Shown piece by piece: positions 11,349 through 18,955 of a stretch of DNA of 64,000 bases. The notes under the pieces were generated by a model. That model worked only from the letters and a program-made list of their open reading frames with translations, made no database searches and had not been told where the DNA came from. This DNA is from Streptomyces specialis. GTDB lineage: Bacteria > Actinomycetota > Actinomycetes > Streptomycetales > Streptomycetaceae. The position numbers and the translations under genes are program-made. The DNA is taken from assembly GCF_001493375.1 (NCBI RefSeq), contig NZ_LN929769.1:124001-188000 (forward strand), in the 5' to 3' direction. Each line of letters begins with the position of its first letter. Position 1 is the stretch's first letter.

Positions 11349-12234
11349 ATGACTGGGACAGGCACGCTCGTACTGGCCGGCACCCCGATCGGGGACCTGG
11401 CGGACGCCCCGCCCCGCCTGGGCGAGGAGCTGGCGACGGCGGACGTCGTCGCCGCCGAGGACACGCGGCGGCTGCGGCGGCTGGCGCAGGGGCTGGGCGT
11501 GCGGGTGGGCGGCCGGGTCGTGTCGTACTTCGAGGGGAACGAGGCCGCGCGCACCCCGGAGCTGGCCGATGAGCTGGCGGGCGGGGCGCGGGTGCTGCTG
11601 GTGACGGACGCGGGCATGCCGTCGGTGTCCGACCCGGGGTACCGGCTGGTGGCGGCGGCGGTGGAGCGCGGGGTGCGGGTGACGGCGGTTCCGGGGCCGT
11701 CCGCGGGGCTGACGGCGCTGGCGCTGTCGGGGCTGCCGGTGGACCGGTTCTGCTTCGAGGGGTTCCCGCCGCGCAAGGCGGGGGAGCGGGCGGCGCGGCT
11801 GCGCGAGGCGGCGGGGGAGCGGCGGACGCTGGTGTATTTCGAGTCGCCGCACCGGCTGGCGGCGACGCTGGCCGCGATGGCGGAGGCGTTCGGCCCGGAC
11901 CGGCGGGCGGGGGGGGGGCGGGGGGTGGGCGAAAAGGTGGAGGGGGGGAGGGGGGGGGGGCCTTTTAACAATCTCCCTGGCCACGGGACAGGGCAGACCC
12001 GCCCCCTCCCCCGCCTTGCGCGGCGAGATCACGGTGGTCGTCGCGGGCGCCGAGCCGTCGGCGGGGGTGGCGGGGGCGCCGGACGCCGCCGGGCTGGCCC
12101 GGCTGGTCGCGGAGCGCGAGGCGGCGGGGCAGCATCGCAAGGAGGCCATCGCGGAGGTCGCGCGGGCGGCCGGGCGGCCCAAGCGGGAGGTCTTCGACGC
12201 CGTGGTGGCGGCCCGGAGCGGCCGTCCGGAGTGA
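11349..12234 (+). CDS. rsmI: 16S rRNA 2'-O-methyltransferase RsmI, frame broken by poly-G tract
   Basis: RsmI methylates the ribose of C1402 in 16S rRNA using SAM. The N-terminal part is intact: [42 protein letters not shown] and the VYFESPHRL block up to about residue 185. The C-terminal end [12 protein letters not shown] and following residues resumes at 12019 in another frame. Between them (about 11910-12018) lies low-complexity sequence with runs of 9-10 G, unrelated to the conserved block that should encode roughly 29 residues there. The interval is about 22 nt too long and shifts the frame by one. I regard this as a sequencing or assembly error in a functional gene. Confidence 0.8.
11910..12018. 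other. Low-complexity poly-G segment replacing part of rsmI
   Basis: This stretch holds several G runs of 7-10 nt, then an AT-richer CCTTTTAACAATCTCC patch and C runs. It does not encode the conserved RsmI segment expected here and shifts the reading frame. Poly-G calls are a common artefact of two-colour Illumina chemistry, and a confirmed adapter remnant lies 5.6 kb downstream. Confidence 0.65.
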
Positions 12235-14488: not shown

Positions 14489-15430
14489 ATGCCCGCCACC
14501 ACTCCCGTCCCGGTCCGCGTCCCCGCCAAGGTCAACGTCCAGCTCGCCGTCGGCCCGCTCCGGCCGGACGGCTTCCACGACCTGGCCAACGTCTTCCTCG
14601 CCGTGGGCCTTTACGACCACGTCACGGCGACCCCCACCGACCCCTCGGTGCCCGGGATCACCGTCACCTGCGCCGGCCCCGGCAGCGAGCACGTCCCGCT
14701 GGACCGCGCCAACCTCGCCGTCCGCGCCGCCGAAATCCTCGCCGCCCACCACGGACTGGCCCCCGCCGTACGGCTCGACATCGTCAAGGACATCCCCGTC
14801 GCGGGCGGCATGGCGGGCGGCAGCGCGGACGCCGCCGGAGCCCTCCTCGCCTGCGACACCCTCTGGGGAACGGCCACCCCCCGCGCCCAACTCCTCGACC
14901 TGTGCGCCGAGCTGGGCTCCGACGTGCCGTTCAGCCTGGTCGGCGGCGCCGCCCTGGGCCGGGGCAGGGGCGAGAAGCTGACCGAACTGGCCGTCGGGGG
15001 GCCGTTCCACTGGGGGTTCGCCCTCGCGGACGGCGGCCTGTCCACCCCCGAGGTCTACCGCGCGTGCGACCGCCTGCGCGGCGACACCCCCGTCGCCGCG
15101 CCCGAGGCCGACCCCGCGCTCCTGGCGGCCCTGCGTACCGGCGACGCGCCCGCGCTCGCCGCCGCGCTCACCAACGACCTCCAGCCCGCCGCCGTTTCGC
15201 TGCGCCCCTCGCTCGCCGCCACCCTGGCCGCGGGCACCGCCGCCGGCGCGCTGGCCGGCCTGGTCTCCGGCTCCGGGCCGACATGCGCGTTCCTCGCGGC
15301 CGACGCCGGGGCCGCCGCCCGGATCGCCCGTTCCCTGACCGACAGCGGCACCTGCCGCGCCGCCCGCACCACCACCGCGCCCGCCCCGGGCGCGACGGTG
15401 CTCGACGCCACGAGCGAGTCCCATGCCTGA
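14489..15430 (+). CDS. ispE: 4-diphosphocytidyl-2-C-methyl-D-erythritol kinase
   Basis: GHMP-family kinase (313 aa) of the MEP isoprenoid pathway; it phosphorylates CDP-methylerythritol. Motifs: N-terminal VRVPAKVNVQLAVGPLRPDGFHDL (about 8-31), the ATP-binding glycine loop IPVAGGMAGGSADAAGAL (about 106-123), and the C-terminal VSGSGPTCAFLA (about 255-266). The start ATG 14489 lies 30 nt after rsmA. The end overlaps the ABC-F start by 8 nt, so tatD-rsmA-ispE-ABC-F form one transcriptional unit. Confidence 0.94.
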   Translation: MPATTPVPVRVPAKVNVQLAVGPLRPDGFHDLANVFLAVGLYDHVTATPTDPSVPGITVTCAGPGSEHVPLDRANLAVRAAEILAAHHGLAPAVRLDIVKDIPVAGGMAGGSADAAGALLACDTLWGTATPRAQLLDLCAELGSDVPFSLVGGAALGRGRGEKLTELAVGGPFHWGFALADGGLSTPEVYRACDRLRGDTPVAAPEADPALLAALRTGDAPALAAALTNDLQPAAVSLRPSLAATLAAGTAAGALAGLVSGSGPTCAFLAADAGAAARIARSLTDSGTCRAARTTTAPAPGATVLDATSESHA

Positions 15431-17255
15431 AGCCGCGGTCAAACCGGCCAAGAACCTCGTCAACCTGGAGTCCGTCCGCAAGGTCTACGGCACCAGGACC
15501 ATCCTCGACGGCGTCTCCCTCGGCGTCGGCCAGGGCGACCGCATCGGCGTCGTCGGGCGCAACGGCGACGGCAAGACGACGCTCGTCCGCATCCTGGCCC
15601 GCCAGGAGGAGCCCGACGACGGCCGCGTCACCCACCTGGGAGACCTGCGCGGCGGCGTCCTCACCCAGTCCGACACCCTCGACCCGGCCGCCACCGTCCG
15701 CCAGGAGGTCATCGGGGACCTCGCCGCCCACGAGTGGGCCGGCGACGCGCGAGTGCGTTCCGTCCTCACCGGCCTCTTCGGCGGCCTCGACCTGCCCGGC
15801 TTCCCCGACGGCCTGGACACCGTCATCGGCCCCCTGTCCGGCGGCGAACGGCGGCGCGTGGCGCTCGCCAAGCTGCTGATCGCCGAGCAGGACCTGATCG
15901 TCCTGGACGAGCCGACGAACCACCTCGACGTCGAGGGCATCGCCTGGCTCGCCGCCCACCTGCGCGAACGCCGTTCCGCGCTGGTGGTGGTCACCCACGA
16001 CCGGTGGTTCCTCGACCAGGTCTGCACCCGCATGTGGGACGTGCAGCGCGGCACCGTCCACACCTACGACGGCGGGTACAGCGACTACGTCTTCGCCCGC
16101 GCCGAGCGGGAGCGCGTCGCGGCCGGCGAGGAGGCCAGGCGGCAGAACCTGATGCGCAAGGAGCTGGCCTGGCTGCGGCGCGGCGCCCCGGCGCGGACCA
16201 GCAAGCCCCGGTTCCGGATCGAGGCCGCCAACGCCCTGATCGAGGACGTCCCGCCGCCGCGCGACGACGCCGAGCTGACGCGCTTCGCGTCCGCCCGGCT
16301 CGGCAGGACCGTCTTCGATCTGGAGGACGTCACCCTGCGGGTCGGCGGCTCGGGCGGCCGGGAGCTGCTCACCCATCTGACGTGGCAGCTCGGGCCCGGC
16401 GACCGCGTCGGCCTGGTCGGGGTGAACGGCGCGGGCAAGACCACGCTGCTGCGCGCCCTGGCCGACCCCGAGGGCTCGGGGCTGCTCACGGGCGGCAAGG
16501 TGACCGTGGGCAAGACGGTGCGGCTGGCGTATCTGTCGCAGGACGTCGCCGAGCTGGACCCGGCCGAGCGGGTGCTCCAGGCGGTGGAGCGGGTGCGGGC
16601 CCGGGTGGACCTCGGCAAGGGCCGGGAGATGACCGCCTCGCAGCTCTGCGAGCGGTTCGGCTTCGGCAAGGAACGCCAGTGGACCCCGGTCGGCGACCTG
16701 TCCGGCGGCGAACGGCGCCGGCTCCAGATCCTGCGGCTGCTGATGGACGAGCCCAACGTGCTGTTCCTGGACGAGCCGACCAACGACCTGGACATCGAGA
16801 CGCTCACCCAGTTGGAGGACCTCCTCGACGGCTGGCCCGGCTCGCTGGTGGTCGTCAGCCACGACCGGTTCTTCCTGGAACGCGTCACCGATCAGGTGTT
16901 CGCGCTGCTCGGCGACGGCGACCTGCGGATGCTGCCGCGCGGCATCGACGAGTACCTGGAACGCCGCGCCGCCCGCCGCCCGCCGGCCGGCACGGCGGCG
17001 GCACCCGCCGCGACGGGGGCACCTCCGGCGCCCGCGAAGCCGTCCCGGCTCTCCCGCGCCGCGCAGAAGGAGATCCAGCGCATCGAGCGCCAGTTGGAGA
17101 AGCTGGCCGAGAAGGAGTCCGCCCTCCACGCCGACATGGCCGAGAACGCCACGGACTTCGCACGTATCGCGGCCCTGGACACCCAGCTCCGTGAACTCGC
17201 CGCCCAGCGCGACGACCTGGAAACCCGCTGGCTCGAACTCTCGGACGACGAGTAG
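15423..17255 (+). CDS. ABC-F family ATPase (Uup-like)
   Basis: Soluble tandem ABC ATPase of 610 aa without membrane domain, a family that acts on ribosomes (translation factors or antibiotic-resistance proteins). The first domain has Walker A GRNGDGKTT (about 44-52), signature LSGGERRR (about 139-146) and IVLDEPTNHLD; the second has GVNGAGKTT (about 332-340), LSGGERRR and LFLDEPTNDLD. Both ABC-F hallmark ends are present. After a Pro/Ala linker, the C-terminus is a coiled coil with Glu/Lys heptads (about 545-605), as in Uup. It is translationally coupled to ispE. Whether it protects against an antibiotic is unknown. Confidence 0.93.
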   Translation: MPEAAVKPAKNLVNLESVRKVYGTRTILDGVSLGVGQGDRIGVVGRNGDGKTTLVRILARQEEPDDGRVTHLGDLRGGVLTQSDTLDPAATVRQEVIGDLAAHEWAGDARVRSVLTGLFGGLDLPGFPDGLDTVIGPLSGGERRRVALAKLLIAEQDLIVLDEPTNHLDVEGIAWLAAHLRERRSALVVVTHDRWFLDQVCTRMWDVQRGTVHTYDGGYSDYVFARAERERVAAGEEARRQNLMRKELAWLRRGAPARTSKPRFRIEAANALIEDVPPPRDDAELTRFASARLGRTVFDLEDVTLRVGGSGGRELLTHLTWQLGPGDRVGLVGVNGAGKTTLLRALADPEGSGLLTGGKVTVGKTVRLAYLSQDVAELDPAERVLQAVERVRARVDLGKGREMTASQLCERFGFGKERQWTPVGDLSGGERRRLQILRLLMDEPNVLFLDEPTNDLDIETLTQLEDLLDGWPGSLVVVSHDRFFLERVTDQVFALLGDGDLRMLPRGIDEYLERRAARRPPAGTAAAPAATGAPPAPAKPSRLSRAAQKEIQRIERQLEKLAEKESALHADMAENATDFARIAALDTQLRELAAQRDDLETRWLELSDDE

Positions 17256-17385
17256 CCGTTCCCGGCCAAAGCCCCAGCGGCAGGCGGCTCCGCGCGGCTC
17301 CACCACGCCCGGGGCATGAAAGTCCGATGGTAGAAAGAGTTGCTCGTACGACGTTCGACCCGCACCGGGTCAGGGGGATCACCAC

Positions 17386-18955
17386 ATGTCGCAGCCACCT
17401 CCACCGCCGCCGCACCAGCCGCCCCCGGCGGCGGCTCCGGGGCCCCCACCCTGCCCGGCGCGGCCCCCCGGCCCCGGTCCCTTTTCCCCCTCGGCCGCGG
17501 CGGCGGAAGAGGCCGGTCGCGATCTCTGTCGCGGCCTGCTCGAGGATCCCAACCGCAAAGGCTCTATCAAGATCTATTTTTTTTTCAAAGCAGAAGCCGG
17601 CATACGATATTTCTGCCTGTCTCGTGGGTTCGGGGATGTGTTTAAGAGACAGGCTCCTGACGGCCGGCGGCGTCTGGCTGCTGACCGGCGACGACGGCGG
17701 GGAGCCGGCGGCCCAGGACCCGGCCCCCACCCCGGACGGGCTGCCCGCCGAGCCGATCCAGGCGTCCCTCGCCTGGGACCTGCCCTCGCCCCCGGTCACC
17801 GTGGAACAGATCCTCCACACCGCCAAGGGCGCCTGGTTCGTGGACGACGCCTTCGTCCGCGTCATGCCCGACGCGATCGTCTCCTACGACCTCGCGACCG
17901 GCCGCGAGAACTGGACCTTTCCCTTCGAGTCCTCCGAAGGCGACTGCCTGGTCTCGCCCAACGCCTCCGAGAACCGCGTCGCCCTCCTCCAGGGCCGCGA
18001 CTGCGAGGTGCTGACCGTGGTCGACATCACCGACGGCACCGAGGTCATGAGCATGCCCCTCGACTCGCAGTGGCCGACCTCCTCGTCCTCCACCCCCGCC
18101 ATCCTCGGCGATGTCGTGGCGATCGGCACCGGCGTCAGCGGCATGGGCTTCAGCGTCTCCCGGGAGGAGAAGCTCTGGGAGTCCCGCACCAACGACCGCT
18201 GCCGCGAGAACGAGTACATGGTCGTCGACGACATGTTCATCTCCCACCTCACCTGCGGCTCGATGGGCGAGGAGGGCGGCAGCATCCGCGCCACCGACGA
18301 GGCGGGCGAGGAACTGTGGGAGTGGGAGTACCCGGCGACGTACGAGAACGGGGAGCTGTCCGTCAACTCCGTCGTCTCCGTCGACCCGTTGGTCGTCACC
18401 GCGACCGTCGGCGAGGACATCACCGACCCCGGCGCCGCGCACATCTTCGTCGTGGACGAGCAACACCGTGAGATAGCCCACGACTTGGACTACGACATCG
18501 ACCGCTACCTGGACCCGTGCGAGGTCAACACCCTGGGCGACTGCTGGCTGGGCGTGGTCCACGACGGGTTCCTCTACCTGCCGACCAACGTCCCCTACGG
18601 CGACAACGCGGTCGCCGCGTTCGACCTGGCACGCGGCCAGGCCCTGTACGAGGTCGAGGCCATCAACGGCGGCCAGATCTGGCCGTTCGGCGTGCAGGAC
18701 GGGAAGATCCTCGCCTACCAGCCGGCGAGCGACACCCTGGAGGGCATGGTCGTCGCGATCGACCCGGAAACGGAGAGCGCCGCACCCGTCATGGCCCTCG
18801 ACCGGGCCGCCCGCGCCCAGGAGTTCGCCCTCATGTCCAGCTTCATGGTCCATAATCAGCAGCCCATGTGGCACGACAACACCCTGGTGCTGGCCAACCG
18901 GACGTTCTACGACGGCGACGACGAGAGCAAGCCCGCCCTCCTCGTCTACCGGTGA
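17386..18955 (+). CDS. PQQ-type beta-propeller surface protein, interrupted by adapter sequence
   Basis: The start ATG 17386 gives MSQPPPPPPHQPPP, the proline-rich cytosolic head typical of streptomycete membrane-anchored PQQ-like propeller proteins. The C-terminal 430 residues (from about 17655) form repeated beta blades with Trp/Asp-rich motifs such as IVSYDLATGRENWTF and FDLARGQALYEVE. Between about 17520 and 17652 the sequence is foreign: an AT-richer patch, a T run and a Nextera adapter. The expected TM helix and linker are missing and the frames do not join. The native gene probably encodes one continuous extracytoplasmic sensor-like protein of unknown ligand. Confidence 0.7.
17586..17652 (-). 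other. Illumina Nextera P7 adapter with index embedded in assembly
   Basis: On the plus strand this reads the P7 flow-cell sequence (CAAAGCAGAAGCCGGCATAC), then TTCTGCCT, which equals the Nextera i7 index N703, then GTCTCGTGGGTTCGG and GATGTGTTTAAGAGACAG, the transposase read-2 primer and mosaic end. There are only a few base errors. On the minus strand the adapter is followed by a run of nine A, the usual read-through pattern. It is a library artefact, not biology. Confidence 0.97.

Follow-up and report, generated by a model that had tools for sequence, protein, structure and literature searches.

Nextera adapter tails within a propeller gene and across a Streptomyces specialis genome assembly

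In the window, the 64-kb stretch of DNA that we analyzed (assembly G000, contig C15, 124001-188000), the segment at about 17475-17652 (~178 bp) consists of two adapter tails linked through noise. It is not biology and not a real feature of this genome. Judged from the assembled letters, the segment is almost certainly a sequencing and assembly artefact, in which untrimmed low-quality read-through tails were joined at a poorly covered gap. We observed both tails and the two indices at this site, saw them recur in the assembly along with mixed combinations of tails, and noted that conserved sequence is missing. The earlier note on this DNA had reported an adapter at one site. The adapter is indeed there, but it is not isolated and is one among many scars in the assembly. 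The features discussed below are as follows.

11910-12018, + strand: probable second scar inside rsmI, G-rich noise that includes, at 11962-11997, a poor P7/N703-like tail (adapter score 35, frame change, conserved residues replaced)
17386-17474, + strand: true beginning of the propeller coding sequence, with the MSQPPPP... linker, truncated by the artefact; the same MSQPPPP start is found in relatives L206, L207, L208, and L209
17475-17493, + strand: first part of the P5-side read-through tail, a very noisy Tn5 mosaic end in the ungapped register from 17475
17494-17544, + strand: noisy read-1 sequence (17494-17507), S503-like i5 index (17508-17515), and P5 sequence from 17516 (39/60 over 17477-17536)
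17545-17576, no strand: noise separating the two tails, comparable to noise at other loci
17577-17585, - strand: nine A, base calls past the oligo end (nine T on the + strand by direct reading; T/A runs lie beside the P7 end in many copies)
17586-17610, + strand: P7 flow-cell sequence, interrupted by a single extra A (direct reading and local alignment)
17611-17618, + strand: i7 index TTCTGCCT, N703, free of errors (direct reading and alignment; name and sequence in a passage of PMC7589761)
17619-17652, + strand: read-2 transposase sequence (17619-17633) followed by the Tn5 mosaic end (17634-17652), by alignment and mosaic-end scan
17653-18955, + strand: true remainder of the PQQ-like beta-propeller gene, picking up inside the membrane helix (PF13360, 6.4e-10; relatives 41-57% identical)

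Two adapter tails at one site

The P7-side adapter at 17586-17652 follows the Nextera P7/N7xx order and spacing (P7, 8-nt i7, read-2, mosaic end). The earlier note had claimed such an adapter with few errors, and its letters and coordinates were right: local alignment of 17588-17652 to P7, N703, and read 2 gives 60/65 identities. The index it had named, N703, is exact, and N703 also tops the 26 i7 indices compared over 17588-17652 with a score of 55, against 47 for the runner-up. The index sequences of N703 and S503 are given in a passage of PMC7589761, and a literature search listed 25 papers that contain the core of the N703 oligo. Past the oligo end the minus strand continues with a run of A and then noise, indicating the read-through pattern that the earlier note had recognized from these nine A.

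The left flank holds a Nextera P5/S5xx tail, with mosaic end, read-1, i5, and P5 in one register. Read without gaps from 17475, the P5-side read-through sequence (mosaic end, read-1, reverse-complemented S503, and reverse-complemented P5) matches at 40/62 positions; the highest count at any of the 63,930 remaining + positions is 34, and the - strand reaches no more than 33. Leaving out the index columns gives 35/54 at 17475 against 29 on either strand elsewhere in the window. The mosaic end and read-1 part from 17475 matches at 21/33, and elsewhere in the window at most 19 (+) or 20 (-). A 60-column ungapped alignment places the tail on 17477-17536 with 39 identities. In a gapped local alignment with the index masked, the left tail scores 18, which 1033 of 3970 random window stretches equal; we regard this test as unfair, since every masked base is penalized like a mismatch. 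S503 is the top of 18 i5 indices at the left tail (36 vs 32) and the commonest i5 in the remainder of the assembly, but its letters by themselves (5/8) are not decisive, and the S503 assignment is weak when taken alone. The adapter match ends at about 17536, and we saw no homology for 17545-17576.

The GC content is 0.485 for 17520-17585 and 0.567 for 17475-17652, against 0.733 for the window, whose GC and gene content point to Streptomyces. The earlier note had described 17520-17585 as AT-richer than its surroundings and probably foreign. The foreign origin holds, and the foreign sequence begins earlier, near 17475, and is itself P5/S503 adapter and noise. We also considered 17505-17540 as real gene sequence, with a frame (KRPVAI...) that resembles the KRPP and membrane helix of the relatives. 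This resemblance was judged a coincidence given the 60-column fit of the P5 tail, which is upheld without the index.

Damage to the propeller gene and rsmI

The scarred gene is preceded, at 15423-17255, by the gene of an ABC transporter-type ATPase (ABC-F-like) that carries two ABC domains and the ABC_tran_Xtn linker. The artefact is located in the N-terminal linker and membrane-helix region, and the sequence right of the scar restarts within the membrane helix at LLTAGGVWLLTG. A propeller homologue at E<=1e-60 is found in 8/392 genus genomes, the source included, and the best homologue in each of the other seven is 41-57% identical. In a smaller search of 60 genomes, the homologues reached at most about 32% identity, too distant to judge the linker. 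The earlier note had proposed comparison with a relative's propeller gene, and this proved informative: relatives carry an intact gene with both parts in one frame. It had also suspected that the join may be wrong. The join looks right because the MSQPP start on the left and the propeller on the right belong to the same gene and share one reading frame in the relatives.

The distance from the MSQPPP start to the basic patch and membrane helix is 176 (L206), 174 (L207), and 188 (L208) residues, whereas the start-to-scar distance here is 29 codons. Since the linker has 174-188 residues in three relatives against about 29, real sequence is likely missing here, and the artefact probably replaces real linker and membrane-helix sequence. 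Linker length is variable, and the linker of a second propeller copy (L213, 37% identical) is short, so the size of the missing part is uncertain. Contigs of three relatives (G294, G134, and G113; loci L205, L210, and L211) start within the same Pro/Gly-rich linker, which suggests that this linker is generally hard to assemble. The earlier claim that the propeller gene is not really broken probably stands for the organism, whose relatives have it intact. It does not extend to the contig, which probably lacks real linker and membrane-helix sequence, and an intact gene would for this reason not result from excising the adapter. Second propeller copies, 37-40% identical, occur in G155, G368, and G037 (L212, L213, and L214), and in at least one of them the linker is much shorter.

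A second scar of the same kind is probably present in rsmI. The rsmI reading frame shifts across 11910-12018, and 29 residues from RRA/RNA to RGEIT, near-identical in the four relatives compared, out of five with L239 left aside, have given way to 109 nt of G-rich noise. The tail at 11962-11997 scores 35, and none of the reversed-adapter controls on the contig reaches 34. This adapter evidence is weak by itself; the assignment as a scar is likely because of the gene damage and the setting.

Recurrence across the assembly and origin of the scars

The assembly comprises 5,884,160 bases in 143 contigs, with a completeness of 98.47 and a contamination of 0.41. At up to 3 mismatches, an N703-bearing 42-mer was found at 25 places in the assembly, the read-2/mosaic-end 34-mer at 38 places, and the 19-nt mosaic end at 292, about one per 20 kb; the reversed-pattern control gave 0 in each case. 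The mosaic-end remnants lie in the interior of contigs as well as at their ends, for instance on C3, C5, C28, and C33, and contig ends with the same tails are seen, for example, on C3, C33, and C15. When C15 was scanned, 25 tails without mutual overlap scored at least 34, and its reversed-adapter control gave none at that level and one at 32.

We took a census of the indices in the whole of C15, seven stretches of C3 (391,728 bases), and loci from earlier adapter searches. In the index-free census of C15, the P7-type tails (n=7) matched N703 best in 6 cases with 1 tie, and the P5-type tails (n=14) were divided into 9 S503, 3 S511, and 2 ties, with 0 in the reversed controls. Among the loci fetched by an index-free mosaic-end pattern (L034-L062), the P7-type tails were N703 in 11/12 cases and N705 in 1, and the P5-type tails S503 in 15/24, with 6 ties, 2 S513, and 1 S511. 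The 82 stretches of the assembly, counts which include loci fetched with N703 queries, gave N703 in 40/44 P7-type tails (3 ties, 1 N705) and S503 in 29/45 P5-type tails (another i5 best in 6/45, 10 ties). A single i7 index, as of one library, is thus seen across the assembly, and one library, N703/S503, accounts for the index census.

The 82 stretches contain 14 convergent tail pairs spaced 98-280 bp, of which 5 are P5/P5, 7 are P5/P7 in either order, and 2 are P7/P7. The segment at 17475-17652 (P5/P7, 178 bp) would be the fifteenth; it is absent from the 14 because that scan did not pick up its poorly matching left tail. Other tails are solitary beside noise or lie at contig ends. With adapter tails on both sides of the site, and the same repeated elsewhere in the assembly, the earlier description of the contig as chimeric at this place was correct. 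A single Nextera library molecule has one P5 end and one P7 end. The P5/P5 and P7/P7 pairs must therefore come from two reads of different fragments. At four C15 pairs, the window site included, no shared 9-base duplication was found across the insert; the left and right 9-mers differ, indicating that the members of each pair do not stem from a single Tn5 cut. In the 25 tails, 1067/1274 aligned bases match. Error rates are 24% for A, 21% for T, 12% for G, and 9% for C, with A to C the most frequent change (44). Errors that fall mainly on A and T are expected of noisy base calls rather than of mutation.

We propose that two Nextera fragments ended close together at a poorly covered, GC-rich place. 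On the left, the read would have continued beyond its insert through the mosaic end, S503, and P5 of the P5-side adapter; on the right, the read would have passed through the mosaic end, N703, and P7 of the P7-side adapter before entering the A run. Without adapter trimming of the reads, the assembler or a gap closer would have linked the two low-quality tails through noise. At places of poor coverage, the last remaining reads were probably ones that ended in untrimmed, low-quality adapter. Low coverage in the GC-rich linker as the cause of the gap, like the program step that made the join, is deduced from the assembled sequence.

Three other explanations were weighed against this joining of read tails. 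A library chimera, in which adapter was ligated or copied into genomic DNA in one molecule and then faithfully sequenced, would explain why P5- and P7-side sequence are both at the site, as in an adapter dimer. It is nevertheless very unlikely, since 7/14 pairs elsewhere are P5/P5 or P7/P7, several tails are solitary, and the tails, whose errors are concentrated on A and T, fade into noise and homopolymer runs. A genuine insertion of Tn5 type, whether of a natural IS50/Tn5 or in a laboratory transposon mutant of the strain, would fit the location in a coding sequence and the 19-bp mosaic end, which is Tn5's own end. We consider it extremely unlikely, because read-2 sequence, N703, and P7 adjoin the mosaic end, and because ~178 bp is too short for a transposase or marker. 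The insert is wholly adapter or noise, and we found no Tn5/IS50 transposase or cargo between two ends in 17475-17652. The 292 mosaic-end copies with assorted errors, the copies at contig ends, and the absent 9-bp target duplication at the four C15 pairs also argue against an insertion.

The resemblance of natural genomic sequence to an adapter by chance has a negligible probability, and nothing was found in its favour. The P7/N703 alignment scores 55 at the site, against 19 at the second-best place in the window and 15 for the top of 300 base shuffles of 17001-18200. The mosaic end at up to 3 mismatches has one copy in the 64-kb window and 0 in 100 dinucleotide shuffles, and 185/199 sampled genus genomes are without the 34-mer at up to 3 mismatches. 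The joining of untrimmed read-through tails is thus the explanation that we prefer.

Other genomes and known systems

The 34-mer at up to 3 mismatches is found in 14/199 sampled genus genomes, the source included, and the source has the highest number (38). A single-contig assembly of the same genus (G012:C1, 9.0 Mb) contains 18 internal copies of the read-2/mosaic-end 34-mer. In public genome contigs, the exact N703 40-mer occurs in at least 119 stretches. Among the matches listed, 131/132 exact N703 matches are within 100 bases of the end of the fetched stretch, and the sole internal case is in NZ_LR732544.1 (Streptomyces mexicanus, a single record of 7.16 Mb), in which P7/N703 (L136:4256-4295) comes after a long T run. 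In a Methanosarcina sp. scaffold (NZ_JJOY01000030.1, L091), the N703 adapter begins at the first base. We found no description of internal adapter misjoins among the literature matches listed, although this does not by itself show their absence.

This genome, 98.47% complete and 0.41% contaminated by the usual scores, very likely carries noisy adapter remnants in the hundreds; many lie inside contigs, and some are joins of two tails. By the same assessment, its apparent pseudogenes, frameshifts, and odd proteins would in many cases be products of untrimmed tails, to which completeness scores are blind, and single-contig assemblies such as G012 would be affected too. This is a warning about quality, as the usual metrics were passed despite 292 remnants, some of them within genes (the propeller gene and rsmI). 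Searches of this genome for mobile elements, repeats, pseudogenes, or unusual proteins would turn up artefacts. Exact or end-only adapter screens can miss these copies because they are noisy and internal, whereas scanning for the mosaic end with tolerance for errors, against a reversed-pattern control, detects the remnants at once.

The scarred gene belongs to the PQQ-like beta-propeller proteins (PF13360) whose N-terminal part has a Pro/Gly-rich linker and a membrane helix. Compared with other members, the gene itself is ordinary, and only its N-terminal part was lost in the assembly. The tails have the order known from Nextera read-through in short-insert libraries, that is, insert, mosaic end, index, flow-cell sequence, and A run. 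Trimming normally removes such adapter, whereas here it was retained and used as overlap. Adaptors are listed among the common contaminants of genome submissions in a passage of the FCS-GX paper (PMC10898089). The present case is the same in kind as the adapter contamination of public assemblies for which NCBI screens ('adaptors'), with kit oligos in deposited contigs. Among the N703 matches listed from public contigs, nearly all are close to an end of the fetched stretch, whereas many copies here are noisy, lie in the interior of contigs, and form tail-to-tail pairs. Adapter contamination is thus already known as a kind, and its extent in this genome is the point for users.
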